From IMG/VR virus record IMGVR_UViG_3300009695_000004, positions 64,001 to 122,342 of that record: a stretch of DNA of 58,342 nt; one strand, written 5' to 3'. The position numbers and the translations under genes were made by a program. The notes beneath the pieces were generated by a model. That model was not told where the DNA came from. It made no database searches and saw only the letters and a list, made by a program, of their open reading frames with translations. The stretch comes from a virus. Below are positions 7,309 through 35,989 of this stretch, one piece after another (position 1 is the stretch's first letter; each line of letters starts with the position of its first letter).

Positions 7309-7337
7309 TTGACAATACTAATATAAAATAGTATAAT
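7309..7337 (+). promoter_or_regulatory. Consensus sigma-A promoter for endonuclease gene
   Basis: TTGACA (7309-7314), 17-base spacer, TATAAT (7332-7337): both boxes match consensus. The predicted start near 7343 coincides with the first paired base of the leader RNA described next. Confidence 0.85.
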
Positions 7338-7341
7338 TAAT

Positions 7342-7434
7342 GTATGGGATAGAGATAAATCTTGAGTCGACACTTGATTTATTCTCGACAAACACAATAT
7401 CCTAATTGTGCTTCCCTACTTTATAAATTAGGAT
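7342..7434 (+). ncRNA. Structured leader RNA, three-way junction with pseudoknot
   Basis: P1 pairs 7342-7349 (GTA, bulged T, GGGA) with 7413-7419. After a TA joint, P2 pairs 7352-7361 with 7376-7386. After the joint GACAAA, P3 pairs CACAAT (7393) with ATTGTG (7405). The P3 loop ATCCTA pairs with TAGGAT (7429-7434); with the flanking bases this becomes a nine-base match that also competes with P3. The RNA starts at the predicted transcript start and ends 29 bases before the endonuclease start. A similar layout lies at 19326-19404. The role is unknown. Confidence 0.45.
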
Positions 7435-7462
7435 AATAAATTCTATAGGAGGAATTATAAAA

Positions 7463-8614
7463 ATGGGATTAATAACTACAGAAATTGAAGTTATGGTGAA
7501 TGGAACTAATATTAAGCATCTTATAGAAATGGGTTATAAAATACCTATGTCAATAAGTAAAAAAGGTAAACCTTGCTATATTTGTGGTGCTCCAGTATTA
7601 GTAAAAGTTGAAGATTTATCGGATGGTAGTCATACGAAGGTTGAATGTCAATGCGATGTGTGTAATAAAATAGTTAGTCCTAAATGGAGTAGTTATAAAA
7701 GAAGTTTTGAAAATCATAAAAAATACTATTGTAATGAATGTGTGGAAAAAGTAAGAATAGATAATAGTTTAAAAACTAGAAGAAGTAAAGAAAATTCAAT
7801 CGCACAATATCTAATAAATACATATGGCGAAAATGCAATAGAGATATATTTGGATTGTAAGAAAAATAAACAGTTAGGACTTAATCCTTGGAAAATAAGT
7901 TGCGGAAGTAACGTTAAAATTTGGGCTAATTGTATCCACACAAATTATCATGAAAGTTATTCTATTGCAGCAAGTAGTATCAAAAGAGGAAGAGATTGCC
8001 CTTATTGTGCAGGCAGAAAAGTTCATCCTTTTGATTCTTTAGGTAAGATATTAGAAGATGAAGGATTGTTGAATATATGGTCTAAAAAGAACGAAAAATC
8101 ACCTTATGAATATCCTCGACATGGCAGGGAAAAAGTTTGGTTTATATGCATAGATGATACAACACATGAAGATTATTTTAGGAGTATAAGTAATGCAATT
8201 AGATATAAGTTTAGATGCCCTGAATGTCAATGGTCAAAGGGAGAAACATCTATAAGTATATATTTAAATAAAGCTAAAATAATATTTGAATCACAGAAGC
8301 CTTATATTGGATTAACGGGAATAAATGGTGGAAGTTTATCATATGATTTCTACTTACCTTTTCCTTATAACATTTTGATTGAATATCAAGGTGAACAACA
8401 TGAAAAACCTACAGATTTTAGAGGAGAAGGTATAGAAATTGCAAAAAAAAGATTTAAGAATCAAGAAATTCACGATAAGCTCAAAAAAGAATATTGTCGA
8501 TTAAACGATATTGAATTATTAGAAATTTGGTATTACGATTTTGATAATATTGATTTGATTTTATCACAACAGCTACAAAATAATATGATTACGTTAATTC
8601 AAGAAGCTATATAA
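7463..8614 (+). CDS. Homing endonuclease, zinc fingers plus Vsr-like nuclease domain
   Basis: Encodes 383 residues. The N-terminal two thirds carry several zinc-type pairs (CYICGAP, CQCDVCNK, YCNEC, CPYCAGRK, CPECQW). Residues about 265-375 (YDFYLPFPYNILIEYQGEQH) look like the PD-(D/E)xK/Vsr-type fold found in EDxHD homing endonucleases: an aspartate strand, then E-x-Q. It is free-standing between the major tail protein and tail chaperone genes and has its own consensus promoter, a 120-base structured leader and a private terminator. Its tail (QQLQNNMITLIQEAI) resembles that of the HNH protein at the left edge. It probably cuts phage DNA and spreads by homing. Confidence 0.75.
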   Translation: MGLITTEIEVMVNGTNIKHLIEMGYKIPMSISKKGKPCYICGAPVLVKVEDLSDGSHTKVECQCDVCNKIVSPKWSSYKRSFENHKKYYCNECVEKVRIDNSLKTRRSKENSIAQYLINTYGENAIEIYLDCKKNKQLGLNPWKISCGSNVKIWANCIHTNYHESYSIAASSIKRGRDCPYCAGRKVHPFDSLGKILEDEGLLNIWSKKNEKSPYEYPRHGREKVWFICIDDTTHEDYFRSISNAIRYKFRCPECQWSKGETSISIYLNKAKIIFESQKPYIGLTGINGGSLSYDFYLPFPYNILIEYQGEQHEKPTDFRGEGIEIAKKRFKNQEIHDKLKKEYCRLNDIELLEIWYYDFDNIDLILSQQLQNNMITLIQEAI

Positions 8615-8630
8615 CATGGCTTCTTTTTAT
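8602..8630 (+). terminator. Terminator overlapping endonuclease stop codon
   Basis: AGAAGCTAT pairs with ATGGCTTCT (one G-U) across ATAAC, then TTTTTATTT. The last codons and stop of the endonuclease gene lie inside the hairpin. Confidence 0.75.
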
Positions 8631-8667
8631 TTAATCAAATATAATCAATAAAAGGAGATAAGGGAAT

Positions 8668-8985
8668 ATGGTAGAGAAAAAACTTAAAGAAAACGAAATT
8701 ATAGTTGGTACAAAAACTTATATTATTCTTCCAATTAAAATTAAACATTTGAAAAACAACTTCTATTCGAATTATATGACTGTTAAAAAAATGGGATTAG
8801 TAAAACTTCTCAATTTCAATGATGGAGAACAATTCATAATAGATTTATTAGAAGCTATATTAGACAGTGAAGAATTAGCAAAAGAAGTTTTGGAAAATAT
8901 TGACGCACAAATTTTAAAAACCATTATGGAAATAACTAAAAAAATAAATGAGATCGACGATGAGCCAGACGAAAAAAACGCTTAA
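8668..8985 (+). CDS. Tail assembly chaperone, short form (gpG-like)
   Basis: Encodes 105 residues after AAAAGGAGATAAGGGAAT. Its place between tail-tube and tape-measure genes, its small acidic helical C-terminus and a slippery heptamer four codons before the end identify the short tail chaperone, analogous to lambda gpG. It would coat the tape measure during tail assembly and is not part of the virion. Zero-frame translation stops at 8983-8985. Confidence 0.85.
   Translation: MVEKKLKENEIIVGTKTYIILPIKIKHLKNNFYSNYMTVKKMGLVKLLNFNDGEQFIIDLLEAILDSEELAKEVLENIDAQILKTIMEITKKINEIDDEPDEKNA
8973..8979 (+). promoter_or_regulatory. Slippery heptamer A AAA AAC for -1 frameshift
   Basis: The zero frame reads GAA AAA AAC GCT TAA, so the heptamer is in exact X XXY YYZ register two codons before the stop. 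A -1 slip opens a frame of 102 codons. Confidence 0.85.
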
Positions 8986-9287
8986 AGGGTGAAAAAGGAC
9001 TGACGTTAAGAAGAGGTTTATCTCTCCTTTCAACCCATTGCTCGTTTACACCTAGCGAATTAAATGAGTTTACATATACTGAATATAAGGACTGTATTTT
9101 TGAATTAGGATTAAAGCTAAACTATTCTGCTATATCCCACATCTTAGGAAATTCAAATGTAGGAGAAGATGGTTCAGAAATGGTTAATAAAGCAAATCCA
9201 ATGAACTATGAGGATAAAACTAAGAACAACAAACCTCAAAGAATGACTAAGGAAATGGCATTAGCATTTTTAGGTCAGAAGCCCTAA
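8979..9287 (+). CDS. Frameshift extension of tail chaperone (gpGT-like)
   Basis: After a -1 slip at 8973-8979, translation reads CGC TTA AAG and stays open to TAA at 9285-9287, adding 102 residues to the first 104 for a 206-residue product. The extension includes FTPSELNEFTYTEYKDCIFE and ends MALAFLGQKP; it has no plausible start of its own, which is why it would be missed as a separate gene. In lambda and most siphoviruses the G-T fusion binds both tape measure and tail-tube subunits. The slippery site, frame and gene order agree, so this is well supported. Confidence 0.85.
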   Translation, partial: RLKGEKGLTLRRGLSLLSTHCSFTPSELNEFTYTEYKDCIFELGLKLNYSAISHILGNSNVGEDGSEMVNKANPMNYEDKTKNNKPQRMTKEMALAFLGQKP

Positions 9288-9301
9288 ATTAATAGCATCA
9301 G

Positions 9302-9338
9302 AAGTGAGGATTACATAATTTTCCTCACTTTATTTTTT
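9302..9338 (+). terminator. Strong intrinsic terminator after chaperone genes
   Basis: AAGTGAGGA pairs perfectly with TCCTCACTT, followed by TATTTTTT. On the minus strand no T run follows, so it acts on plus-strand transcripts. Confidence 0.8.
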
Positions 9339-9366
9339 AACTTTTTTATCCTATAAAATTTTCATT

Positions 9367-9630
9367 TTAAATTGTAGTTTCTTTCGCCTCAGCAGCCTCT
9401 TTTAATTCCCTATCACGTTTCATTCTATATTCTAAAGGAAGATTGTTTTCATGAAATTTATCCCAATCTATATTATTCCATGATTCTTCTATACGTTCAT
9501 CCTCCTTCTTCCTATCATTAACATATTTCATAAGATAAATCACGCTAAAAACAATCGCTAACCCAACCCCTATTATCCAAAATTGACCGAAAATCAATAT
9601 TACACACAATATTAATATAATAAAAAACAT
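9367..9630 (-). CDS. Small membrane protein, antisense moron in tail module
   Basis: Encodes 87 residues. Residues 2-36 form two close hydrophobic stretches (FFIILILCVILIFGQFW and IIGVGLAIVFSVIYL), followed by a charged cytoplasmic tail of about 50 residues (NDRKKEDERIEESWNNIDWDKFHENN). GAGGTGAT lies just upstream and a sigma-A promoter 20 bases further, so the gene is real although it runs against the late operon. Independently promoted, reversed genes inside structural modules ('morons') are often expressed by the prophage; membrane morons can block superinfection. That role is only inference here. Confidence 0.75.
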   Translation of the reverse strand: MFFIILILCVILIFGQFWIIGVGLAIVFSVIYLMKYVNDRKKEDERIEESWNNIDWDKFHENNLPLEYRMKRDRELKEAAEAKETTI

Positions 9631-9648
9631 TTAAATCACCTCAATTTA

Positions 9649-9677
9649 ATTATATAACAATTGGAAAGTTTATGCAA
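9649..9677 (-). promoter_or_regulatory. Sigma-A promoter for reversed membrane gene
   Basis: On the minus strand TTGCAT (9677-9672), 17 bases, TATAAT (9654-9649). The predicted start falls just upstream of the GAGGTGAT ribosome site. Confidence 0.8.
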
Positions 9678-9715
9678 GTTTAATTTAGAAAATTATTACT
9701 TAATGTAATTTACAT

Positions 9716-9729
9716 ATCAAATATAATAT
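9716..9729 (+). repeat. Gene-junction motif upstream of tape measure
   Basis: ATCAAATATAATAT, the TCAAATATAAT form of the motif; 60 bases ahead of the tape-measure start, with a hairpin between. Confidence 0.5.
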
Positions 9730-9735
9730 AAGTTA

Positions 9736-9766
9736 AGAGTAGAGACTTTCTACTCTTTTATCTTTA
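9736..9766 (+). terminator. Hairpin terminator in tape-measure leader
   Basis: AGAGTAGA pairs perfectly with TCTACTCT across GACTT, then TTTATCTTT. It precedes the ribosome site GAAAGGAAG, so it would limit entry of transcripts into the tape-measure gene. Confidence 0.65.
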
Positions 9767-9788
9767 AAAGAAAGGAAGTTTTGTAATT

Positions 9789-12700
9789 ATGGCAGATAAT
9801 GATAAGTTATTAACCTCCCTCCGTATAAATTTAAAGTCACTTCAGGAAGACGTAACTAAGGCAAATTCCATACTTAAAAGTCTAACAGATTTAGAATTAG
9901 AAGCGGTAAATATAGATAGTGGAAAAGAAGCTATTAAATTATTAAGACTTATTCAAGATGAATTTAAAAAGATAAATACAGTGAGTACAGTAAAAATCGA
10001 CACTAAATCAATTGATGATATGGAAAAGAAATTAAAAGGTCTAGGTGTCACCTTAAAAGAAACATTGCAGAGTACCACAAAATCGGTTACTACTGTTTTA
10101 GATGATGGTGGCAATCCAATTAAGAAAACAATAAAAGAAGAAATATCATTATTAGATGAATTAGGTAGAGAATATAAAAAGGTCAACTCTGAAATTACGG
10201 GAGCAGGAGATTCTACAACAAAAATAAATACTGAATCTGTAACTAATAATGTTGCAAAGCATGTAAAAGAAGAAGAAAAACTTGCTCTTGCAATCAGCAA
10301 AACAAGGGAAGAAATTGAGTTTAAAAATAAAGAAGCATTGAAATTTAATCCTAAAACAGCAATGACCTCCATAGAAACAAATTATAATAAATTATCATCT
10401 AGTGGTGTAGAAAAAATAGCAGATTTACAAGAATATACAACTAAAATTGAGACTTTGATAAAAGATTATAATTTAGAAGGGGATGCGTTAAAATCTGCAA
10501 CTGCCTTAAAAAAGAAATATAATGATGAATCTATAAAAATATCCGACAATTTAGATAAACAAGCAAAAGCTAGTTCTAAGAAATCTATTACTGATGAAAT
10601 AGGTAATATTAAAACTGCATATAATCAACTTAATACTTCTGGAAATGAAAGAGTCGAGAGTTTAAAAAGCTTAAATATTCAAACCGATAAATTACTAAAA
10701 AATGAAAATTTAGAAACAAGTAGTATTGTTACATTGACAGGACTACAGAAGACATATACCAAGGAAATAAATAATGTGGCTGAGGCTACCAAGAAACTAA
10801 ACCTTGAATCTCTAAAGCAATATACCCAAGAACAATTACAAGCTGGATATGGCGCAGGAAATAAGACAATGACTGATAGATTAGGTTCTATATCTGGTGC
10901 TTCAAAGAATCAAACTTTGGGTTCAGGAGACGTTAGAAACTCAACTTTCGTAGATAGATTCAATGTTGCTAAAGATTATGTTGTGTCTAGTAAAATATTC
11001 AATATGGCATTTAATTCGATGGATCAAGCGTATAACAGCATAGCGAAGTACGAAGAAGGACTCGTGGATTTGTCAAGGACACTTTCCAATGTTTCGGATA
11101 ATGATTTAAAGAATTTTGGAAAAGAAGCTATTCAAGCATCAAAAGATTTTGGAGTGCCTCTGGAACAGGTTCAGGCTGCTTATACTGAATTAGCAAGGGC
11201 TGGTGTAGATAATAAAGATGATTTAGCATCGATGGTAAAATCTGTTTTGACCGGAATCAACACAACCGAGATCAAGGATGCCGCAACTCTAACATCCTTT
11301 TTAGTAAGCACCGTCAAGCAGTTAGGAATGTCATATCAAGATACTAACAAAATAATTGATAGTTGGAATATGTTGTCAGATAAATATGCAGTAAAAAGCA
11401 ATGATTTTGCTGAAGCTATACAGAAGTCTGGAAGTGCTAGTAAAAGCCTAGGCCTCGGACTTAATGATCTTAATGCTATGGTTGTAGTTTTGGGTGAAGC
11501 TACACAAAAAAGTGGAAGTGAAGTAGGTTCGGCTGTAAAAACCCTAGAAACTAGATTATTGCGTCCGGAAACAGTGGCAACTCTCGAAGGAATGGGTATT
11601 GCAGTAAAAAAAGATGCTGAACATTTTAACTCATTTCAAACCATTATGGCTCAAGTAAATACAAAGATGGATGAGTTTGGGGAAGGTTCAATTAAAGCTA
11701 ATGAATTAATGGATAATCTTGGAGGAGCATGGAGACGCAACGATATCGCAATCCTAGCAAATGGTTGGGATCAAATAAATCAAATATCAAAAGAAAGCCT
11801 TGGTTCATCTGGTTACAGTATAGCTGAAAATGAAAAAGCAATGAAGACATTGACCAAACAAGTAGAAACACTAAAAAATGTATTTGCTGAATTATTCATT
11901 TCCTTTGGAGAAAGTGGCGTACTTGACCAATTAAAATTTATGGTTTCACAAGCAGCTAAAACCGTAAGTGCCTTTTCATCAATTCCACCTTCTGTAAAAA
12001 ATACAGTAATAGTTCTCGCTGAACTTGCAGTTGCATATAAGGCTATAAATTCTGTTCAAAAGATGATAACCGGACAAGATTTTAAACAATGGTTAGATAT
12101 GTTATTACCAAAAATTGGTGGATTTAGTAAAGTATTTGGTGATGGTAATGCATCGATGAGAGCATTTCAAATGGGAGCTAAAAGCCTAGGAGATAGTTTA
12201 TCAAGTGGAAATATTAATATAGATGAATATTCTACAATATTAGGGGAACTTGGGAAACAATGTGGAGTATCTGCTGTAGGAGTAGACCAATTAAAACTTT
12301 CAAAAGCGGCATTAGATAAACAATTAGATACTGGTAAAATTACCCAGGTACAATATAATGAACAATTAGAAAAACTAGCAACCACGACTAAGACTGCATC
12401 TATTGCAAATAAAGCACATGAATCATCTCAGAAAGCAGTAACAGCAGCGAAGAAAAGTACATTGGTTTCTACACTCGCATTAAACGTTGCAACCATAGCA
12501 TCTACCCTATTAATTTCTGCGGCAATAGCAGGAATATACAAACTTGCAGATGCCCTAATTATAACTAAAAAAGAATTAAAAGAGATGAACGAAGCTACAA
12601 AAAGTGCGATGGACGCAATAAGTAAAAATGCAACAACATCTCAATCATCATTAAATAGAAAAGTAGAAATTGAAGAACTTCTAAAAGGTAATCTTGCAAT

Positions 12701-15401
12701 AGATGAACAATCTAAATTAGAAAAAGAACTTTATGATATCAAAGTCAAACTTGGAGAAATGTTACCCGGAGCAGTATCTTCAATTAATGCTGAAGGTAAA
12801 GCTATTGCAGATAATAATGTTTTAATCCAAAAACAGATTGACTTAGAGAAAGAAAGGGTAAAAGCTAAAGCCGATGCTTATTTAAAAGATAATAGTAAGT
12901 TTAATATACTTGGAAACGATATAGGTAGCAAAGCTACAAAAACAGGTAATGATATTAGTAGATATGAGCAAATGAAAACAGCATCAGATCAAGGCAGAAG
13001 TAGTTATGATGAAATTCTTGGAACAAATGCTCAGGGTAAAGTCATGACAAAATCTGTAAAATTTGACCAAACTGATATGTCTAAGTTGAAAATAGCAATT
13101 GAGGATAATAAGTTAAGTTTAATGGAATGGGATATGATGTACTCTCAGGCTAGTGATAGTATGAAAGCACAATTACCAACATACGAAAGTGTTGTCACTA
13201 AAATTAATAGCATGAGCAGTTCAACAGACTCAAATACTAATTCAATAAAAGCTAATGCGTTAGCACAAGAAACTAACGTTATGACAGCAGAACAAATTAA
13301 AGCAGCACAGGAAGCACTTCAAAAATCCTTTCAAGATTCAACAGCCAAAATTGAAGATTATCAAAAAATACTTCATGACCTAAAAACCAATGATAGTGAA
13401 TTAAAATCTGCAACCATGAAGAATTTAGCCAAAGATCATATTGAACTCCTCCCCTATCTTAAAGATGAAAAGATGTTAATAGATAAAGTAACTGAAGCAT
13501 TAGAAACAGAAAAGAATACAGCAAATCAAGCTTATAGAGAAATGATGATGTCAAACAATGACTATTATAACTCTACTATTAAGGGAACAAATATAGTTAA
13601 AAATGCTTTAGGTGACTATTATAATCAGTTATCTGCAAGTCAAAAGAATGATTTAGCCAATGCTAAAAATCTTGCAGAAGCAAAAGTAATAATAGAAAGA
13701 GAACTCATTAGTCGCTTAGCTAAAGCGTGGGATTCTTATAATAGTGCGGTTGCTAGAACATTATCTAGACATGCTGATCTCGCTGCTCAAATGGATTCTG
13801 GAGATCCTTATGCAGAAGCACAACTATCAAAGTTTATAAACAATAACAGAGCAGTTCAAAACGCATTAACAGATGCTAGAAGTATTCAATCACAAATAGA
13901 TGGTATAAATACGAGTTTCAATAATATAGGCGCAAATATAAATAATCCATTTACTTATGGTAATACTTATGCAGGAAGCGACGCTAAAGCAGGTTCAAAA
14001 GATTCCAACACTGTAGATAATCTATCTCTAGAAATTGATCGTTATACAAGATTAAATGCAGTCATATCGACACTAAATAACACAATTGATATGAATAATA
14101 AACTCTATGACCAAGCATCATATGCTGATAAAATATCCCTTTTAAATCAGGAAATTGTTCTTCTCGACCAAAAGAAAATCGCTATAAAGAACTTAACTGC
14201 CGAACAAATAAAAGAAATGAATGAATTAAAGGCAAACCTAAGCGGAAATGGATTTGGTTTTGACTCAAGTGGTCAAGTAACAAATCAAAATGATAGACTT
14301 CTTCAATTTCAAAACTCAGCCAATTCAAAAAGCGGAGATTCTAAAACCGCTGCAATTGAAAATGTCAAAGCATTGCAAACAGAAGTTGAAAGGTATAATG
14401 AACTTGTTAATAGTTTAATTCCAGGATCTAATAGCAACTGGCAAGACGTAGCGAATGAAATTAATACTGTCAAACAATCAATAAAAGACTTAAATCGTGA
14501 ATCATTAGAAAATGTAAAAGAAGTTCAAAATCAAGTCATAGAAATGTTACAGAAACAAATTGAAGATAAAAAGAAATCACTTGATGACGATTTAAAACTT
14601 ACAGAAGATCACTTTGCAAAACTTAAAGAAATAGAAAGTCGTCAATATTCTGAACAGGATTACAATAAAGGACTTAAAAAAGAATTAGATGCTAAAAAGA
14701 AACTTCAAGCAGAAATTGAACAACTTGCAGATGATACATCTAGAGAAGCACAATCCAAACTTGAAGACTTAAAAGCACAACTTCTAGAACAACAAACTGC
14801 AATAGATGATATGCAAGAAGGTCACGCTAGAGATAGCAAAACCCAAGCTTATGATGACATGTTGAAATCTGCACAGGATAATGTTGAAGCTCAAAAGAAA
14901 GCATTAGATGATCAATATACAGATACAAATTTACAGAAAATTGCAGATGATGCAGTTAAGACAGGGGTGTTTAATAATCTAAATGGAGAAGTAGTAAATG
15001 TACAAACAGCTTTCACAACATTCTTTAATGCAACAGCAGAAGGTATGAGTGCAACAGGTAAACTTGTACAGGAGGAATTTATAGATAAACTTAAATTAGC
15101 AGAAGAAACCGCAATAAGATTAAGTGCTTTAATGCCTAACTTATCTGCTATGACAGTTTCTTCCATATTACCTTCATTACAATTACCATCATTAAGTATT
15201 CCTAAATTTGCAATGCCAGATATGTCTATGTTAAATAATAATCAAAATATACCTACTGTAAATAATTTCAGTTTTGACCATTTAGTTCAAATTGATGGAA
15301 ATGTTATGGATACAGGAAATATTAAAACATTAATTATAGAAGGAGTACAAACAGGACTTAACGGAATTCTAGGATATGCAACACCAAGTATAAATTATTA
15401 G
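9789..15401 (+). CDS. Tail tape measure protein
   Basis: Encodes 1870 residues, the largest gene. Residues about 400-660 match the TP901-type tape-measure core (SIAKYEEGLVDLSRTLSNVSD, then FGVPLEQVQAAYTELARAG). Residues about 890-925 form a strong hydrophobic stretch (LALNVATIASTLLISAAIAG), as usual for proteins that enter the membrane during DNA ejection. Residues about 1590-1720 are coiled coil. At roughly 1.5 angstrom per residue the tail should be near 280 nm, which marks a long-tailed siphovirus. It follows the chaperone genes and precedes Dit. No lytic transglycosylase motif is obvious. Confidence 0.95.
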   Translation: MADNDKLLTSLRINLKSLQEDVTKANSILKSLTDLELEAVNIDSGKEAIKLLRLIQDEFKKINTVSTVKIDTKSIDDMEKKLKGLGVTLKETLQSTTKSVTTVLDDGGNPIKKTIKEEISLLDELGREYKKVNSEITGAGDSTTKINTESVTNNVAKHVKEEEKLALAISKTREEIEFKNKEALKFNPKTAMTSIETNYNKLSSSGVEKIADLQEYTTKIETLIKDYNLEGDALKSATALKKKYNDESIKISDNLDKQAKASSKKSITDEIGNIKTAYNQLNTSGNERVESLKSLNIQTDKLLKNENLETSSIVTLTGLQKTYTKEINNVAEATKKLNLESLKQYTQEQLQAGYGAGNKTMTDRLGSISGASKNQTLGSGDVRNSTFVDRFNVAKDYVVSSKIFNMAFNSMDQAYNSIAKYEEGLVDLSRTLSNVSDNDLKNFGKEAIQASKDFGVPLEQVQAAYTELARAGVDNKDDLASMVKSVLTGINTTEIKDAATLTSFLVSTVKQLGMSYQDTNKIIDSWNMLSDKYAVKSNDFAEAIQKSGSASKSLGLGLNDLNAMVVVLGEATQKSGSEVGSAVKTLETRLLRPETVATLEGMGIAVKKDAEHFNSFQTIMAQVNTKMDEFGEGSIKANELMDNLGGAWRRNDIAILANGWDQINQISKESLGSSGYSIAENEKAMKTLTKQVETLKNVFAELFISFGESGVLDQLKFMVSQAAKTVSAFSSIPPSVKNTVIVLAELAVAYKAINSVQKMITGQDFKQWLDMLLPKIGGFSKVFGDGNASMRAFQMGAKSLGDSLSSGNINIDEYSTILGELGKQCGVSAVGVDQLKLSKAALDKQLDTGKITQVQYNEQLEKLATTTKTASIANKAHESSQKAVTAAKKSTLVSTLALNVATIASTLLISAAIAGIYKLADALIITKKELKEMNEATKSAMDAISKNATTSQSSLNRKVEIEELLKGNLAIDEQSKLEKELYDIKVKLGEMLPGAVSSINAEGKAIADNNVLIQKQIDLEKERVKAKADAYLKDNSKFNILGNDIGSKATKTGNDISRYEQMKTASDQGRSSYDEILGTNAQGKVMTKSVKFDQTDMSKLKIAIEDNKLSLMEWDMMYSQASDSMKAQLPTYESVVTKINSMSSSTDSNTNSIKANALAQETNVMTAEQIKAAQEALQKSFQDSTAKIEDYQKILHDLKTNDSELKSATMKNLAKDHIELLPYLKDEKMLIDKVTEALETEKNTANQAYREMMMSNNDYYNSTIKGTNIVKNALGDYYNQLSASQKNDLANAKNLAEAKVIIERELISRLAKAWDSYNSAVARTLSRHADLAAQMDSGDPYAEAQLSKFINNNRAVQNALTDARSIQSQIDGINTSFNNIGANINNPFTYGNTYAGSDAKAGSKDSNTVDNLSLEIDRYTRLNAVISTLNNTIDMNNKLYDQASYADKISLLNQEIVLLDQKKIAIKNLTAEQIKEMNELKANLSGNGFGFDSSGQVTNQNDRLLQFQNSANSKSGDSKTAAIENVKALQTEVERYNELVNSLIPGSNSNWQDVANEINTVKQSIKDLNRESLENVKEVQNQVIEMLQKQIEDKKKSLDDDLKLTEDHFAKLKEIESRQYSEQDYNKGLKKELDAKKKLQAEIEQLADDTSREAQSKLEDLKAQLLEQQTAIDDMQEGHARDSKTQAYDDMLKSAQDNVEAQKKALDDQYTDTNLQKIADDAVKTGVFNNLNGEVVNVQTAFTTFFNATAEGMSATGKLVQEEFIDKLKLAEETAIRLSALMPNLSAMTVSSILPSLQLPSLSIPKFAMPDMSMLNNNQNIPTVNNFSFDHLVQIDGNVMDTGNIKTLIIEGVQTGLNGILGYATPSINY

Positions 15402-15428
15402 AGGGGATTAATTTCCTCTCTTTTTATT
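15400..15428 (+). terminator. Hairpin terminator after tape measure
   Basis: AGAGG and CCTCT pair around GGATTAATTT, then a T run before the GGGAGG ribosome site of the next gene. Confidence 0.6.
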
Positions 15429-15450
15429 ATGTCAAGAAGGGAGGAAATTA

Positions 15451-16218
15451 ATGTTTTTTGATACAGATTTTATATATGACGGACAAGAAAGTATAAATAT
15501 GGGAGTTTCTATAATAAGACTTGAAGGTGGATTAATAGAAAGTTCTACATTAAAACAACAAATTATTGAAGAGAAAATAAATTCAAAAGATATACCAGTT
15601 TTCTATGGAGTTAGTAGAGATGTATTAACATTTCCTATTGTTATAACAAAACTTGATGAAGATGGAATATTCACATATGAAGATAGAGTGAGAATCCTAA
15701 GATGGTTATGTAAAGGAGAATATAAGGAATTTGCTTCTAAAGATTCTCCTATAGTTTATTATGTATTATTTGATGAAGTTAAGAAAACTTCTAATGTATT
15801 AAGTCAAGGATATATTACATTAAATGTAAGACTTAACGCTCCATATGGATTTTCCCCTATACAAATAGAGGAACATGATTTATATGATAATACTACTACA
15901 GAAATTATTGAGCTAGAAAATAATAGCAATATAATAGACTTTTATTATCCAGAAATCGAGTTTACCGTTACAGAGGGTACAAGTGTCACCTTTAGAAACT
16001 TAACGAATGGTGGTGAAATATTCACTATTAATGGCTTAATTCCGACAGAGGTTATTTACATAAATATGGAAACAGGAAGAATTAAAAGTAACATAGGTAT
16101 TTATCATTTAGGAGATTGTAATAAGAATTGGTTATATTTGGTATATGGAATTAACCGTATAGAAATTACAGGAAAAATTCAACTAAGTGTAAGAATGCAA
16201 TTTCCAATGATATTGTGA
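15451..16218 (+). CDS. Distal tail protein (Dit)
   Basis: Encodes 255 residues. The N-terminus (MFFDTDFIYDGQESINMGVSI) is typical of clostridial Dit proteins, which form the hexameric hub at the tail tip. Residues about 1-130 would make the ring, with a galectin-like C-terminal domain in 130-255 (IEFTVTEGTSVTFRNLTNGG). It lies between tape measure and Tal genes, the invariant siphovirus order, and is translated from GGGAGGAAATTA. Confidence 0.85.
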   Translation: MFFDTDFIYDGQESINMGVSIIRLEGGLIESSTLKQQIIEEKINSKDIPVFYGVSRDVLTFPIVITKLDEDGIFTYEDRVRILRWLCKGEYKEFASKDSPIVYYVLFDEVKKTSNVLSQGYITLNVRLNAPYGFSPIQIEEHDLYDNTTTEIIELENNSNIIDFYYPEIEFTVTEGTSVTFRNLTNGGEIFTINGLIPTEVIYINMETGRIKSNIGIYHLGDCNKNWLYLVYGINRIEITGKIQLSVRMQFPMIL

Positions 16219-16231
16219 AAGGAGGTAAACT

Positions 16232-18979
16232 ATGCTTGTTGATAATATAGATTATACGAAAAAATATGACATGAATTTAATATTATGCAGAAGTTATGAT
16301 AGAAAACAACTAGTACAATTAAATGATTATATAAATTTCAATACATTTCAACTTCATAAAGTCCTAGATAATTATAATGATATTACTTTTGAAGTTCCTT
16401 TTTATATAGTTGAAAATAACCAGACAATTGAGAATCCTTATTATGACTTAATCATGGACGGATATTTAATATTTCTAAATGAGACGGAATATTTCATTAT
16501 AGAATCTCCAGAAGAAGTAGGAGTAGATAGAGATAAGAAAATTATTAAAGCCTATGGATATGAGAAAACATTAAATAATAAAAGTTTAATTTCTTATGAA
16601 GATACCGCACAGATATATCATGATGTTGTCGAAACAGGATTAGGAGTATTGGATAGATTTATAGAAGATAATCCTGAATGGTCGATAGGTTATATAGATT
16701 CTATCGCAAGATTAGATGACTTATCAATTGGTCAAAATCATAATAAATATAGAAGTTTTACTATAGATGAGAAAGCTTGGCTATTATTTCTTCGAGAAGA
16801 TTTTAGTCAAGCTTTTCACTGTATCTGTGTATTTGATACTTTGAATATGACAATAAATATATATGACAAAGATACAATTGGAGAAGATAAAGGATTGTAT
16901 ATATCTGAGAAGAATTATCTAAAATCTATAAGAAAGAAATTAAATACAGAGAAAATTGTAAGTAGATTATTTTGTTATGGTAAGAATGGATTAATATTTA
17001 ATGACGTAAATTCTACTGGTTTAAGTTATGTATTTGATTATAGTTATTGGAGAAAACTTGAATATATGCCACAGGAACTACTCGACGCTTTTACTTCGTT
17101 CGACGCATTGATTACAAGTAAACAAGGTGAATTTGGTGCACTACTTGTTGAAGTAAATACAATTAATGGAAGTATAACAGATAGAGAAGCTGAACTTGTA
17201 GAATTAGAAAATGGGTTAAGTTTACTTAAAACTCAGAAAACTATATTTATAACATTAGGAACTTCTGATTTAAGTGTAATTAATACACAAATAAATAATA
17301 AGCAGATTGAAATTGATAATAAGAAAGTTGTTATTGCAAATTTGAATGTTGAGTTAGTTAATGTAAGAGCATTGAAATCTGCATTAGTTGTATTGTTATC
17401 TTTTGAGAGTAATTTTACATTAGAACATTTAAAAATAATAAATAGTTATGGACTTCATACCACCTGGAAAAATGATACTATAATTAATAATGCTGATTTG
17501 TTAGCAGAAGGTAAAAAAACTTTGACCGAATACAATACTCCTGTTATTGAAATTGATACAGATGTATTAGATTTTCTAAAGATGGCTAAATGTCAAGATG
17601 ATTGGAACTTTCAATTGGGAGATATTGTTAATTTAGAGTATAATAAATTAAAGATGAATGTTAAGGATAGATTAATTGAATATACTTATTCTCCTAGTGG
17701 AAATAGTTTAAAATTGATATTTAGTAATAAATTGTTTAAAGATGATCCACAAAGACAGTTAGGACAAGGAATTTCTAAAGCAATTTCGTCTGCAAATGTA
17801 ATCAGTAAGAAGAAATATATTTGGGATTTATCCGAAAGTAATATGCTGAGTATTGATGATATAATGACAAATAATTTTGACTTAATGAAACAAAGTGTTG
17901 CTACGAGTGATAATACTGTAAATATTGATAAGCATGGAATTGTGTTACAAGATAGAAATAATTTAGATAATATGCTGTATATGACAAGTGGGGTAATTGC
18001 AATGAGTACAGATGGAGGAGAAAATTTCAGATTGGGGATTACTCCTGGAGGAATTTTAACAGAAACTTTGATTGGTCAAATTTTGATTTCTGAAAATTTA
18101 TATATCGTGAACGAAGCTGGAAATTTTAGTATTGATAAAGATGGATTTACATTAAAAGATGAAAATTATAAAACATTAATAAGCCCAAAAGGAGTGGTTA
18201 ATTCAGACAATATAGGATTCCCAGAACAAGTCGATTCAACTCATCCTTATATGATGGACTTTTTCATTGATGATAACGTAAATGTGATTAGTCAAGTATT
18301 ATTAAAATTAAGCGTCCAGAATTTTAGAGCATATGAAACTGGCTCAGCAGCGGGAGGCTCTGGAACACAAACAAGTTCCAGTGGAGGTGGGTCTACGCAA
18401 ACAAGTTCTTCTGGAGGAGGAGGTTCTGTAACGAGTTCTGGAGGTTCTGGTCAAACAGCAGCTTCAGCAGGTTCTCATGAACACGATATATTCAGATTAG
18501 CAGACGTATACCCTTATCCTAGTTCCAATGTTTCCGATTTTTATAAATATTATATAAATGGAGTTGCTAATCTTGATTTTGCAATACTTCTACCAGAAGG
18601 ATATCAAACAACAAACTATGATGTCATTAAAACTTACGGAAGTTCTGGAAGTCATTCCCATTCAGTTTCATCACACCAACATTCTGTAAGTACTCCAGAT
18701 CACCAACATTCTGTAAGTACTCCAGATCACCAACATTCTGTAAGTACTCCAGATCACCAACATAGTTTAGTCTATGGAATTTATGAGAAACCATTAACAT
18801 TAGGCGCTATGAATATATATATAGATGGAATATTGAGAGCGAGCGCAATTAATCAGAAAAGTTTAGTTGATTTAACCTCAAGCATAACCGTGAAGGGGTG
18901 GCATCAGATTTTAATTACATCGCCTGATTTAAATAGATACTCGGTTTCCCTATCAATAAAAACATACATCGGTGCATAA
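16232..18979 (+). CDS. Tail-associated protein (Tal) with HxH-rich tip
   Basis: Encodes 915 residues. The first 380 match the phage tail protein/Gp37-like N-domain (LILCRSYDRKQLVQLNDY, IKAYGYEKTL) that sits below Dit. Coiled coil and strand-rich spacer follow. From about residue 705 there is a Gly/Ser/Thr-rich linker, then GSHEHDIF. From about 805 there is a run of HxH motifs: SHSH, SHQH and four HQHS in tandem repeats. The end (GAMNIYIDGILRASAI) is the standard tip domain of Gram-positive phage fibres. HxH pairs in phage tips bind iron in known structures. No peptidase motif was seen. Confidence 0.8.
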   Translation: MLVDNIDYTKKYDMNLILCRSYDRKQLVQLNDYINFNTFQLHKVLDNYNDITFEVPFYIVENNQTIENPYYDLIMDGYLIFLNETEYFIIESPEEVGVDRDKKIIKAYGYEKTLNNKSLISYEDTAQIYHDVVETGLGVLDRFIEDNPEWSIGYIDSIARLDDLSIGQNHNKYRSFTIDEKAWLLFLREDFSQAFHCICVFDTLNMTINIYDKDTIGEDKGLYISEKNYLKSIRKKLNTEKIVSRLFCYGKNGLIFNDVNSTGLSYVFDYSYWRKLEYMPQELLDAFTSFDALITSKQGEFGALLVEVNTINGSITDREAELVELENGLSLLKTQKTIFITLGTSDLSVINTQINNKQIEIDNKKVVIANLNVELVNVRALKSALVVLLSFESNFTLEHLKIINSYGLHTTWKNDTIINNADLLAEGKKTLTEYNTPVIEIDTDVLDFLKMAKCQDDWNFQLGDIVNLEYNKLKMNVKDRLIEYTYSPSGNSLKLIFSNKLFKDDPQRQLGQGISKAISSANVISKKKYIWDLSESNMLSIDDIMTNNFDLMKQSVATSDNTVNIDKHGIVLQDRNNLDNMLYMTSGVIAMSTDGGENFRLGITPGGILTETLIGQILISENLYIVNEAGNFSIDKDGFTLKDENYKTLISPKGVVNSDNIGFPEQVDSTHPYMMDFFIDDNVNVISQVLLKLSVQNFRAYETGSAAGGSGTQTSSSGGGSTQTSSSGGGGSVTSSGGSGQTAASAGSHEHDIFRLADVYPYPSSNVSDFYKYYINGVANLDFAILLPEGYQTTNYDVIKTYGSSGSHSHSVSSHQHSVSTPDHQHSVSTPDHQHSVSTPDHQHSLVYGIYEKPLTLGAMNIYIDGILRASAINQKSLVDLTSSITVKGWHQILITSPDLNRYSVSLSIKTYIGA
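18674..18764 (+). repeat. 27-base tandem repeats encoding HQHSVSTPD
   Basis: Three identical 27-base units (18674-18700, 18701-18727, 18728-18754) and the first ten bases of a fourth. The frame is kept, so unit gain or loss changes the number of HxH pairs without breaking the protein. Confidence 0.95.
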
Positions 18980-19001
18980 TAAAGTTTAAGGAGGAAATTT
19001 A

Positions 19002-19307
19002 ATGGCATATAATATAGATATAAAGACTAATTATGGTATAAACTGTAGTCATTGGAAAATATCTAAAATTGAAAAAGATTATGTTTCTCAATCTGCATAC
19101 ATAGTGCTGTATGGATATCCATCAAAAGAAATAAAAGATCAAAAAAATGAATGCCTCGAAAAAAGGTATATAAATATATATCCTGTCGATTTTGATGAGG
19201 TTTTTGGAATAGAAAAACTTAATCAAGAAGATATGAATGATATAAAATCTTTATATGAATTTATTAAAGAAAACTTTGATGAATTTAAGGATGCAGAAAT
19301 TTCTTAG
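19002..19307 (+). CDS. Small tail-region protein, unknown
   Basis: Encodes 101 residues after AAGGAGGAAATTTA. It has a mixed sequence with an acidic helical C-terminus (DMNDIKSLYEFIKENFDEF). It sits between Tal and fibre genes, a slot often used for a small baseplate or fibre-attachment protein. No motif is recognised. The structured leader of the GIY-YIG gene starts 18 bases after its stop. Confidence 0.7.
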   Translation: MAYNIDIKTNYGINCSHWKISKIEKDYVSQSAYIVLYGYPSKEIKDQKNECLEKRYINIYPVDFDEVFGIEKLNQEDMNDIKSLYEFIKENFDEFKDAEIS

Positions 19308-19325
19308 TCAAATAATGTTTACTCA

Positions 19326-19404
19326 ACGGTAGATAGGAACTCGAGATCCGACAAGATATAACCTCAATTATCTTCTACCGTATTTTTATATATTATAAAT
19401 GAGG
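19326..19404 (+). ncRNA. Structured leader RNA before GIY-YIG gene
   Basis: P1 pairs ACGGTAGA (19326-19333) with TCTACCGT (19374-19381). After a TA joint, a short P2 (GGA/TCC, 19336-19349) is followed by the joint GACAA and P3 (GATA/TATC, 19355-19372). The P3 loop holds CCTCA, which can pair with TGAGG at 19400-19404. Order, the TA joint, the GACAA joint and the loop pairing match the element at 7342-7434, though P2 and P3 are weaker. ATTTTTATAT follows P1, so it may also terminate transcription. Confidence 0.35.
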
Positions 19405-19415
19405 AAAATCATAGA

Positions 19416-19442
19416 ACAGAAGTTTATTTCTTCTGTCTTTTT
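19416..19442 (+). terminator. Hairpin terminator in GIY-YIG leader
   Basis: ACAGAAG pairs with CTTCTGT across TTTATTT, then CTTTTTG; 37 bases ahead of the start codon. Confidence 0.6.
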
Positions 19443-19478
19443 GTCGTCCAAAAATATATTATGAGGAAGGTGTATTAG

Positions 19479-20810
19479 ATGGTTTCTAAGAAAACAATTG
19501 GTATTTATAGTATAACCAATATAATAAATGGAAAAATCTATATAGGACAGAGTATAGAGATAGAAAAACGATGGAGAAGACATAAAAATGAATTGAAAAA
19601 TAATAAACATGACAATATTTATCTCCAGAGATCTGTAAATAAATATGGTTTTGATAATTTTCAATTTGAAATAATTGAAGAATGTAAAAAAGAATTATTA
19701 AATGAAAGAGAAATTTATTGGATATCCAATTATAACTCCAATAGTTTCATCAAAGGATATAATTCTGAATCTGGAGGTAGTTTGGGCAAAACATTAAGTG
19801 ATGCTACGAAAAAGAAGATAGGAAATAGATATTATCCAAAAGGAGAAGATAACGCAAATTCCTCTCTAACAAACCTTCAAGTTGTGAAAATAAAGAAACT
19901 ATTAAGTGAAAAGAATCTTGATTTTTCTCAAATAGGACATATGTTTAATGTTAAGGGTTATATAGTAGGAAACATTAAAGATAAGCGTTCATACAAAAAT
20001 GTTGAAACAGAATATGATGATATGATTGAAGAAAACTATCCTAAAAAATTTCTTAATATTAATCCCAAAAAGTTAAATGATAAAGAAATAATACAGATAA
20101 AACAATTACTAATTGCTAAAGAAAAACCAATCTATGAAATTGCTGATTATTTTAGTGTCGCAAAAGATGTAGTTAGTGCAATTAAAAATATTAGAAGTTA
20201 TAAATCTGTTGGGAAAGAATATAATGAATTACTTTCAGAGGATATTAAAATTAGAGTTGTTAATAAACAAATAGTTATGGAAATAAAATATCTATTATAC
20301 GAAGGCATTCTTAATTCAAGAGAAATAGGAGAAGCTTTTGGTATATCAATAGGATTAGTTCAAGATATTAAAAAAGGGAGAGCATGGAAAACTGTTATAA
20401 CAGAATGGGATGATATTATAAAGAATAAAGTAAGCGAACATTCAAAAGATCAACATAGTAAAATTCCTATAAATGATATTGTTAAAATAAAAACATTATT
20501 ATTTGAAAATAAATTAACGCAAGTTGAAATAGCTAAATTATTTAATATAGGAAGGGACGTTATATTGTCAATAAATACATTAGAATATAATGCTGATATT
20601 TCTCCAGAGTTAAACGAAACACTAAAAAGTCAAAATCGAAGAGAAAAATTAACAGAAATAGATGTTATAAAAATCAAACAAATGATTCAAGATGGTTTAA
20701 AGAATAAGGAAATAGTAAAAAGTTTTAATATTGATCCATCCACCATCTCAAATATTCGCACAGGTAAGATTTGGAAACATATACAAATCAAAAATAATAT
20801 ACCAGCATAA
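19479..20810 (+). CDS. GIY-YIG homing endonuclease with five HTH-like repeats
   Basis: Encodes 443 residues. Residues 7-95 are the nuclease: GIYSITN, KIYIGQS, the arginine of EKRWRRH, and NEREIYWI with the catalytic glutamate. From about residue 128 to 435 the protein is built of five similar helix-turn-helix-like units, each with a V/I-x-K-I-K start and an IRSYKSV or GRAWKTV-type end (KIKKLLSEKN..., QIKQLLIAKE..., EIKYLLYEGI..., KIKTLLFENK..., KIKQMIQDGL...). Known relatives usually have one to three DNA-binding modules. It is free-standing between a small tail gene and the fibre gene, with GAGGAAGGTG upstream. Confidence 0.85.
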   Translation: MVSKKTIGIYSITNIINGKIYIGQSIEIEKRWRRHKNELKNNKHDNIYLQRSVNKYGFDNFQFEIIEECKKELLNEREIYWISNYNSNSFIKGYNSESGGSLGKTLSDATKKKIGNRYYPKGEDNANSSLTNLQVVKIKKLLSEKNLDFSQIGHMFNVKGYIVGNIKDKRSYKNVETEYDDMIEENYPKKFLNINPKKLNDKEIIQIKQLLIAKEKPIYEIADYFSVAKDVVSAIKNIRSYKSVGKEYNELLSEDIKIRVVNKQIVMEIKYLLYEGILNSREIGEAFGISIGLVQDIKKGRAWKTVITEWDDIIKNKVSEHSKDQHSKIPINDIVKIKTLLFENKLTQVEIAKLFNIGRDVILSINTLEYNADISPELNETLKSQNRREKLTEIDVIKIKQMIQDGLKNKEIVKSFNIDPSTISNIRTGKIWKHIQIKNNIPA

Positions 20811-34103: not shown

Positions 34104-35924
34104 ATGGCATCCACAAATGAAGTTGTCGAAGTCAAAGAAAAAAGAGTTGCTTGTTTATACAGAGTTTCTACAAAAGGACAAATGGAAAAAGATGATATTC
34201 CAATGCAGAAGAGAGCATGTAGAGAATTTATTGAAAAGCAAGTTAAATGGAAACTTGTCAAGGAATATTCTGAAAAAGGAGTATCCGGATATCGTGTTGC
34301 AGCAAGTAAACGTGATGAATTACAGCGTGCAAAAGTTGATGCTGAAGCAGGATTATATGATGTGCTACTAGTATTCATGTTCGATAGATTAGGTAGACGT
34401 GAAGACGAAACTCCTTTTGTTGTTGAATGGTTTACTAGGCAAGGTGTAGAAGTATGGTCTACTCAAGAAGGTGAGCAAAGATTTGACACTCATGTTGATA
34501 AATTAATGAACTATATAAGATACTGGCAATCAAGTGGAGAAAGTCAAAAGACTTCAATGAGAGTTAGCGAGAAACACAGACAAATGGTTAAAGATGGGGA
34601 GTTCAGAGGTGGAAAGCCACCCTATGGTTTTCACTTAAGTAAAACTGGAGTAGTTAATAAAAAAGGTAAGGAACTTTTAGGTTTAGAAATAGATAAAGAT
34701 GAAAGTAAAGTTGTGAAGGAAATGTTTGATTTAGTATACTTACAAGGTTATGGCGGAGTGAGAATTGCTAAGTATTTAAATCAAAAAGATATTCCTCCTA
34801 GATATACAGATAAGTGGTCATTAGGAGTTGTTAATTATATACTTAGAAATCCTATTTATAAAGGTTATATGGCCTATGACAAAACTACTAGTCTAGAAAC
34901 TGGATTGTCAAAAAGATTAAAGCCTGAAGATTGGATTCTATCAGATAATCAAATCGAAAAACTTATTATCATAGAGGAAGACGTTTGGGATAAAGTTCAA
35001 GTTATCAGAGCTAGTAGAGCACCTAATATGACGGGTAAAAAAGGTACTATTGATGATTATAATTTAGAAAAGTCTACCGTTCCAAATGGTACTACTAAAA
35101 GCCCTTTATTGTTCGTAGGAAGGATTAAATGTGGTTACTGTGGTTCTCCCCTTACTACAACATATCACTATAAGAGTTGGACTAATAAGGATGGATCTGT
35201 TCATAAGAAACTAAGACCAAAGTATAGGTGCAGTGGTAAAGCTTTAGGCAAAGGTTGTGAAGGTCAAACCGTATACGCTCAAGATAGAATTGAAACTACT
35301 GTGTTAGATGAAGTTAAGAAGTACCTGGAGGAATTAAAAAAAGTTGATATGACTACACAAATTAATAAATTTAAAAAATCAAATATGGATGAAGATTCTA
35401 CGGAATTAAAAAATTTACACAAACAACTTGAAGATAATTATGAGGAATTAAACGCTTTAATGAAAGAAGTTTCTAAGTCAATTATGGGTAAAAGTTCTTT
35501 TAAGCCAGAACTATTACAAAGCATAATAGAAGAAAAAGAATCTGAAGTTCAGAAGTTGAATAATAAAATATCCATAATAGATGAAAAATTAAAAAGTAAA
35601 AATGTAGAAGTTGGCGAAATGCAATTGTTACAGAAATATATTCCTATATGGGAGAGCAACTTTGATGATGGTACAATTGAAAATAAAAAAGTTATGTTGA
35701 ATCTTATCATCAGCAAAGTCACTGTTTTCAAGGATTATATCGATGTTAGCTTTAAAATTAATATTTCTAACTTTGTATCAAACACTAAACTCTTGGGGTT
35801 GCAAAACAAGCGCAGCTGGGAGTACAACTACGTCAGTAACACGACCCCTAATTCTACTGTAATTGAGAAGTTGTCAAGGTTATTATTATGTGATATAATC
35901 AAGTCAACAACTAAGGGGCTGTAA
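34104..35924 (+). CDS. Large serine recombinase (integrase)
   Basis: Encodes 606 residues after AAGGAGATTAAATT. Residues about 13-160 are the resolvase-type catalytic domain: YRVSTKGQ with the nucleophile Ser22, then the arginine-containing MFDRLGRREDE. Residues about 175-270 are the recombinase domain (GGVRIAKYLNQKDIPP), about 330-390 the zinc ribbon (CGYCGSPL ... YRCSGKALGKGCEG), and about 400-500 the coiled coil that controls integration versus excision. It would integrate and excise the phage genome. The last codons include a promoter, and the stop codon lies inside a tRNA gene. Confidence 0.93.
   Translation: MASTNEVVEVKEKRVACLYRVSTKGQMEKDDIPMQKRACREFIEKQVKWKLVKEYSEKGVSGYRVAASKRDELQRAKVDAEAGLYDVLLVFMFDRLGRREDETPFVVEWFTRQGVEVWSTQEGEQRFDTHVDKLMNYIRYWQSSGESQKTSMRVSEKHRQMVKDGEFRGGKPPYGFHLSKTGVVNKKGKELLGLEIDKDESKVVKEMFDLVYLQGYGGVRIAKYLNQKDIPPRYTDKWSLGVVNYILRNPIYKGYMAYDKTTSLETGLSKRLKPEDWILSDNQIEKLIIIEEDVWDKVQVIRASRAPNMTGKKGTIDDYNLEKSTVPNGTTKSPLLFVGRIKCGYCGSPLTTTYHYKSWTNKDGSVHKKLRPKYRCSGKALGKGCEGQTVYAQDRIETTVLDEVKKYLEELKKVDMTTQINKFKKSNMDEDSTELKNLHKQLEDNYEELNALMKEVSKSIMGKSSFKPELLQSIIEEKESEVQKLNNKISIIDEKLKSKNVEVGEMQLLQKYIPIWESNFDDGTIENKKVMLNLIISKVTVFKDYIDVSFKINISNFVSNTKLLGLQNKRSWEYNYVSNTTPNSTVIEKLSRLLLCDIIKSTTKGL
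35871..35899 (+). promoter_or_regulatory. tRNA promoter inside integrase coding end
   Basis: TTGTCA (35871-35876), 17-base spacer, TATAAT (35894-35899). Transcription would start near 35906, nine bases before the tRNA. Confidence 0.75.
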
Positions 35925-35989
35925 CTCAGTGGGAGAGTGTTACGCTGGCAGTGTAGAAGTCGAGGGTTCGAATCCCTTCAGCTCCACCA
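35915..35989 (+). tRNA. tRNA-Ala (anticodon GGC)
   Basis: A full 75-base cloverleaf: acceptor GGGGCTG/CAGCTCC, D stem ACTC/GAGT, anticodon stem TTACG/TGTAG with loop CTGGCAG (anticodon GGC), T stem GAGGG/CCCTT with loop TTCGAAT, discriminator A and encoded CCA. The third acceptor pair is G-U, the main alanine identity signal. It overlaps the end of the integrase gene by ten bases. The anticodon stem has two G-U or U-G pairs. No second tRNA is seen in the window. Confidence 0.9.

Follow-up and report, generated by a model that had tools for sequence, protein, structure and literature searches.

The stretch of DNA analysed here, hereafter called the window, comprises 58,342 nt of a virus, i.e., positions 64,001-122,342 of the IMG/VR record IMGVR_UViG_3300009695_000004, and carries two homing endonuclease genes unrelated to one another, on the one hand a gene of the DUF4379/HNH type, and on the other hand a GIY-YIG gene (Table 1). 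Both are preceded by a leader whose minimum-energy fold is the same three-way junction (z -3.3 and -2.3), namely P1-UA-P2-GACAA(A)-P3-(C)U-P1', and the order of parts read in the original prediction is thereby borne out, as are the consensus promoter at the start of copy 1 and, in both copies, the complementarity of the P3 loop (L3) to a segment lying downstream of P1, hereafter the proximal decoy. Beyond that prediction, the Shine-Dalgarno (SD) sequence of each gene is itself complementary to the same L3. The three segments read UAUCCUAA (L3), UUAGGAUA (decoy) and UAGGAgg (SD) in copy 1, and AACCUCA, UGAGG and UGAGGaagg in copy 2, where the SD repeats the decoy; the L3-SD match of copy 1 covers only 5 nt and, taken alone, is not significant.

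Table 1. Features of the two leaders and their genes, with positions in the window (R2, covariance model described in the text).
Feature	Position	Strand	Basis
Sigma-70 consensus promoter TTGACA-17-TATAAT before copy 1	7309..7337	+	12/12 matches
RNA copy 1, P1/UA/P2/GACAAA/P3/CU/P1', int-alpA-like	7342..7419	+	fold; R2 match
Copy 1 P1, GUA(U)GGGA with UCCCUAC, one bulged T	7342-7349/7413-7419		
Copy 1 joint UA	7350-7351		
Copy 1 P2, long	7352-7386		
Copy 1 joint GACAAA	7387-7392		
Copy 1 P3, CACAAU-AUCCUA-AUUGUG	7393-7410		
Copy 1 L3 (AUCCUA), putative anti-SD	7399..7404	+	sequence, complementarity
Copy 1 joint CU	7411-7412		
Copy 1 proximal decoy (UUAGGAUA), complementary to L3	7428..7435	+	L3:decoy -8.4 kcal/mol
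Copy 1 hairpin P4 (AAUUC/GAAUU), SD in loop	7439..7456	+	fold
Copy 1 SD segment UAGGA, complementary to L3	7446-7450		L3:SD -5.6 kcal/mol
Homing endonuclease gene, HNH/DUF4379 treble-clef, Vsr-like	7463..8614	+	Pfam PF14311, phrog_559, phrog_9084
RNA copy 2, P1/UA/P2/GACAA/P3/U/P1', int-alpA-like	19326..19381	+	fold; R2 match
Copy 2 P1, ACGGUAGA with UCUACCGU	19326-19333/19374-19381		
Copy 2 joint UA	19334-19335		
Copy 2 P2, GGA/UCC, 3 good pairs only, 8-nt loop	19336-19349		
Copy 2 joint GACAA	19350-19354		
Copy 2 P3, GAUA-UAACCUCAAU-UAUC	19355-19372		
Copy 2 L3 (UAACCUCAAU)	19359..19368	+	sequence, complementarity
Copy 2 joint U	19373		
Copy 2 proximal decoy (UGAGG)	19400..19404	+	L3:decoy -7.2 kcal/mol
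Terminator-like hairpin and U tail, between copy 2 decoy and SD	19416..19436	+	
SD of the GIY-YIG gene (UGAGGAAGG)	19462..19470	+	L3:SD -7.2 kcal/mol
UGAGG within this SD, complementary to L3	19462-19466		
GIY-YIG homing endonuclease gene	19479..20810	+	Pfam PF01541, phrog_7168
tRNA-Ala (GGC) gene of the same phage	35915-35989		

Scanned against Rfam at permissive thresholds, both leaders returned chance matches only, neither RNA being found, and BLAST of the copy 2 leader against phage records gave no match. A descriptor search of IMG/VR endonuclease loci recovered the same order of parts closely upstream of other endonuclease genes. Since MAFFT misaligned the raw leaders, sequences were aligned as structural blocks of fixed length, and 14 of the descriptor-found sequences treated in this way made up a covariance model (R1), which gave 30 matches (E <= 0.05), mostly before endonuclease-type genes, over 50 whole phage records chosen for holding such a gene. 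The exact pattern UA-P2-GAHAA was present in 55 phage stretches, and the pattern of a second P2 type in 36 phage stretches, with 21 from bacterial genomes; a parser fitted both P1 and P3, neither of which is part of the pattern, in 98 of the 104 pattern instances. When a model (R2) was built from 72 sequences, i.e., intermediates and Rfam-positive members with the window copies left out, its top match in the window was copy 2 (19327-19380, 27.9 bits, E 4.7e-5) and its second copy 1 (7343-7418, 18.0 bits, E 0.02), both E-values being rough; the modest score of copy 1 comes from its P2, which is much longer than that of the model. The same two copies still rank first over the whole 122-kb record, and no further copy of the RNA was found elsewhere in this phage genome, the third match (40678-40663) being a 16-nt mini-hairpin judged to arise by chance. 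Two IMG/VR records (G027 and G009, behind loci L050 and L018) hold four copies of the RNA each, before different genes that are mostly of endonuclease types.

The two RNAs of the window are best regarded as diverged relatives of int-alpA RNA (RF02996). Neither reaches the gathering cut-off of this family (35.8 bits), but an Rfam scan of 14 loci, 12 of them pattern loci, returned 12 matches at or above it; intermediates such as L056 (36.6 bits), L070, L161 and others pass it, so that a series of intermediates, from which together with Rfam-positive sequences R2 recovers both copies, joins the window to the Rfam members. The order P1-UA-P2-GAHAA-P3-(C)U-P1' is common to all, as are an L3 rich in C and, downstream, an AGG element able to pair with it, which in int-alpA lies within the 3' tail of the Rfam model. 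The differences concern P2, which in int-alpA has 4 pairs and a GACG loop but is long in copy 1 and formed by GGA/UCC around an 8-nt loop in copy 2, the second joint, i.e., GACAA in the window copies and GAAAA in int-alpA, and the inner P1 pair, which is A-U in the window copies, unlike in int-alpA. The int-alpA RNA has been named, with no function given (PMC12370729); its Rfam model ends before the SD and the family is typed as 'Gene; sRNA'. The original prediction of one RNA module standing before unrelated endonuclease genes is upheld, though the module is neither new nor endonuclease-specific, as it belongs with int-alpA and precedes other genes too. The int-alpA family is widened to members missed by the Rfam model.

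Homologues had been expected to display covarying pairs, and they do: among the 72 sequences, 93.9% of the pair cells are standard and the covariation score reaches 0.947, compared with 0.230 for shuffled sequences and no more than 0.19 when partners are slid. These figures should be read in the light of how the members were obtained: those of R1 and of the descriptor search had been selected partly for their pairing, and the parser takes the best register, while in most sequences P1 and P3 lay outside the search pattern. The bases of the junction, i.e., the set GAUA / GAHAA / YU, are conserved, GAUA and GAHAA being near-invariant across phyla.

The main new result is that L3 is complementary to both the decoy and the SD, with all three covarying. 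The decoy lies shortly after P1 (median 8 nt), and the second matching segment, which belongs to the SD region, precedes the start codon by a median of 10 nt. When the L3 sequences were redealt among members (83 distinct L3, 500 permutations), the mean longest match of 5.01 between L3 and decoy compared with a permuted mean of 2.95 and a maximum of 3.31, and that of 4.88 between L3 and SD with a mean of 3.60 and a maximum of 4.04. Both excesses recur in all three subsets that had been selected separately, where none of the permutations reaches the observed value, and the same is true of the 12 L3s that lack a CC core. In loci L272 and L276, the loop UCAACGA matches the decoy UCGUUGA together with a CGUUGA copy located 5' of the SD core GAGG; as this L3 is not SD-like and its second match flanks the SD, the match here is no by-product of an anti-SD sequence. 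In 56 of the 75 members, against 24 in shuffles, the SD is found in the loop of a hairpin. Binding of GGA by a protein of the CsrA type was considered for this arrangement and dropped, since the L3 pairing is kept in several members whose matched segment contains no GGA. The duplexes of L3 with decoy and SD have mean energies of -7.1 and -7.5 kcal/mol, and in 46 of 75 members the two lie within 2 kcal/mol of each other.

This comparison of about 100 relatives makes it rather probable that each leader is a divergent int-alpA-type RNA that opens the endonuclease mRNA and, acting in cis, switches its translation between two stable states. Comparison of sequences establishes the junction, the two L3 pairings and their covariation, the SD hairpin and the enrichment of promoters at the start of the RNA, from which we infer regulation itself and which of the two states is ON. 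The compact three-way junction (GAUA / GAHAA / YU) would present L3 as an anti-SD. In the ON state, L3 would form a pseudoknot with the proximal decoy just past P1, and the SD would stay accessible; in the OFF state, L3 would pair with the SD in its small hairpin loop, which would then be blocked. The pseudoknot would be expected to form first during transcription because the decoy is transcribed earlier and beside P1, and its stabilisation by the junction probably sets the balance between ON and OFF; the conserved junction may also hold a ligand or a protein that sets it. The original prediction had already read two exclusive states as in a switch, opposing P3 to the longer match in copy 1; that longer match is genuine, yet it is not the conserved feature, and a better account of the exclusive states opposes L3-decoy to L3-SD rather than P3 to a longer pairing.

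As in translational riboswitches, one segment has the SD and a competitor as alternative partners, and a conserved junction adjoins a pseudoknot; mutually exclusive SD and anti-SD pairing, as seen by comparison, is also present. Unlike in them, no ligand is known, the genes are non-metabolic and the competing segment almost repeats the SD. In phage T4, I-TevI and other homing endonuclease genes are translationally controlled by a hairpin sequestering the SD. In both instances, RNA structure at the SD would limit the expression of phage homing endonucleases, though T4 relies on a simple local hairpin, whereas the junction described here is conserved and common to several endonuclease classes and to other genes. 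The switch offers a testable cis mechanism for an RNA family filed by Rfam as a small RNA gene.

The main rival, which we regard as possible rather than probable, is a fixed tuner of translation, in which pairing with decoy and SD would hold a costly nuclease low and steady with neither switching nor signal. The near equality of the mean L3-decoy and L3-SD energies is what such a device could display, and the downstream genes have no metabolic theme, but in its simple version it needs neither near-invariant GAUA and GAHAA across phyla nor two exclusive partners. Much more tentatively than the switch itself, int-alpA-type RNAs could constitute one sensor family for a shared phage or infection signal, i.e., a ligand or a host protein, switching the translation of mobile genes and of genes for lysogeny control (homing endonucleases, antirepressors and genes next to integrases) through an anti-SD loop passed between decoy and SD.

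In 11% of the members, a promoter matching the consensus at 10 or more of 12 positions has its end 0-10 nt ahead of P1, the frequency elsewhere being about 0.5% per bin, so that the transcript tends to begin with the RNA; for copy 2, no clear promoter was found. Near-identical strong promoters (TTGACAATAC..AA.ATAATAT.GTATAAT) recur in the phage genome (L135-L138, L305-L307), copy 1 using one of them. In nearly all members, the RNA stands some 30-60 nt ahead of the start codon, which argues against a small RNA acting in trans, whose stable junction would expose the C-rich L3 as an anti-SD seed for other mRNAs; despite the type given by Rfam and the terminator-like hairpin located right behind the RNA in copy 2 only, this reading is unlikely, as L3, unusual loops included, covaries with the SD of the very gene that it precedes and no terminator was found between the RNA and the gene in copy 1. 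That same absence in copy 1 weighs against a transcription attenuator, where the pairing of L3 would decide on termination at a hairpin after the decoy. Copy 2 may act at the level of transcription, given its terminator-like hairpin between decoy and SD, but the terminator stem and the decoy have no bases in common, and no comparable hairpin was noticed among the further leaders that were read, so that attenuation ranks as slightly less credible still. Finally, a chance likeness of two AU-rich leaders, admitted by the original prediction in view of the three pairs of P2 in copy 2, is highly improbable and, for the two copies taken together, refuted by the ranking of both at the top by R2, by matches preceding other endonuclease genes in other phages and by the L3-decoy and L3-SD covariation, the case being weaker for copy 1 alone.

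Regarding the genes placed behind the RNA, 30 downstream proteins from phage contigs picked solely by the UA-P2-GAHAA pattern were classified with Pfam. Homing-endonuclease types (GIY-YIG, HNH_3, AP2, NUMOD) account for 13 of them and antirepressors (Rha, Bro-N, ORF6N) for five, the others including one methyltransferase and one tail-tube protein; in the background of 99 random ORFs from the same contigs, one HNH_3 appeared among the 25 families listed. The enrichment upstream of endonucleases that had been anticipated is therefore seen from the side of the RNA, although most endonuclease loci are without it. Few bacterial chromosomes carry the RNA, which was found in 1/398 and 8/398 genomes of two phyla (E <= 0.001, strict filters), before genes that, as read rather than classed one by one with Pfam, are not endonuclease-like in appearance. 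An association with endonucleases only is ruled out by these chromosomal genes, by the other phage genes bearing the RNA and by the endonuclease loci lacking it; altogether, the survey describes a module widespread in mobile elements, enriched at endonuclease genes but not limited to them, and ties the int-alpA family to homing endonucleases, antirepressors and integrase neighbours.

A stretch similar to the RNA occurs in 35 E. coli genomes. In the one E. coli copy inspected (L309, NZ_CP059917.1 4813913-4819966), the int-alpA RNA lies in an integrated element between an integrase gene and a hypothetical gene, and both decoy and SD match L3; an HTH regulator gene follows at about 1 kb. The design in which the decoy is a copy of the SD lends itself to a direct test by compensatory mutations, and the E. 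coli prophage copies are tractable in the laboratory. One exact P2 sequence, GUGAUUGCAACAY (L226-L261), precedes many unrelated genes, which suggests that the RNA module itself has been exchanged between genes. At two loci (L097:2914-2969 and L083:2316-2373), the RNA comes right after an apparent tRNA 3' end (CCA), and the GIY-YIG frame that follows it contains in-frame TAG codons, as in phages reading TAG as an amino acid.
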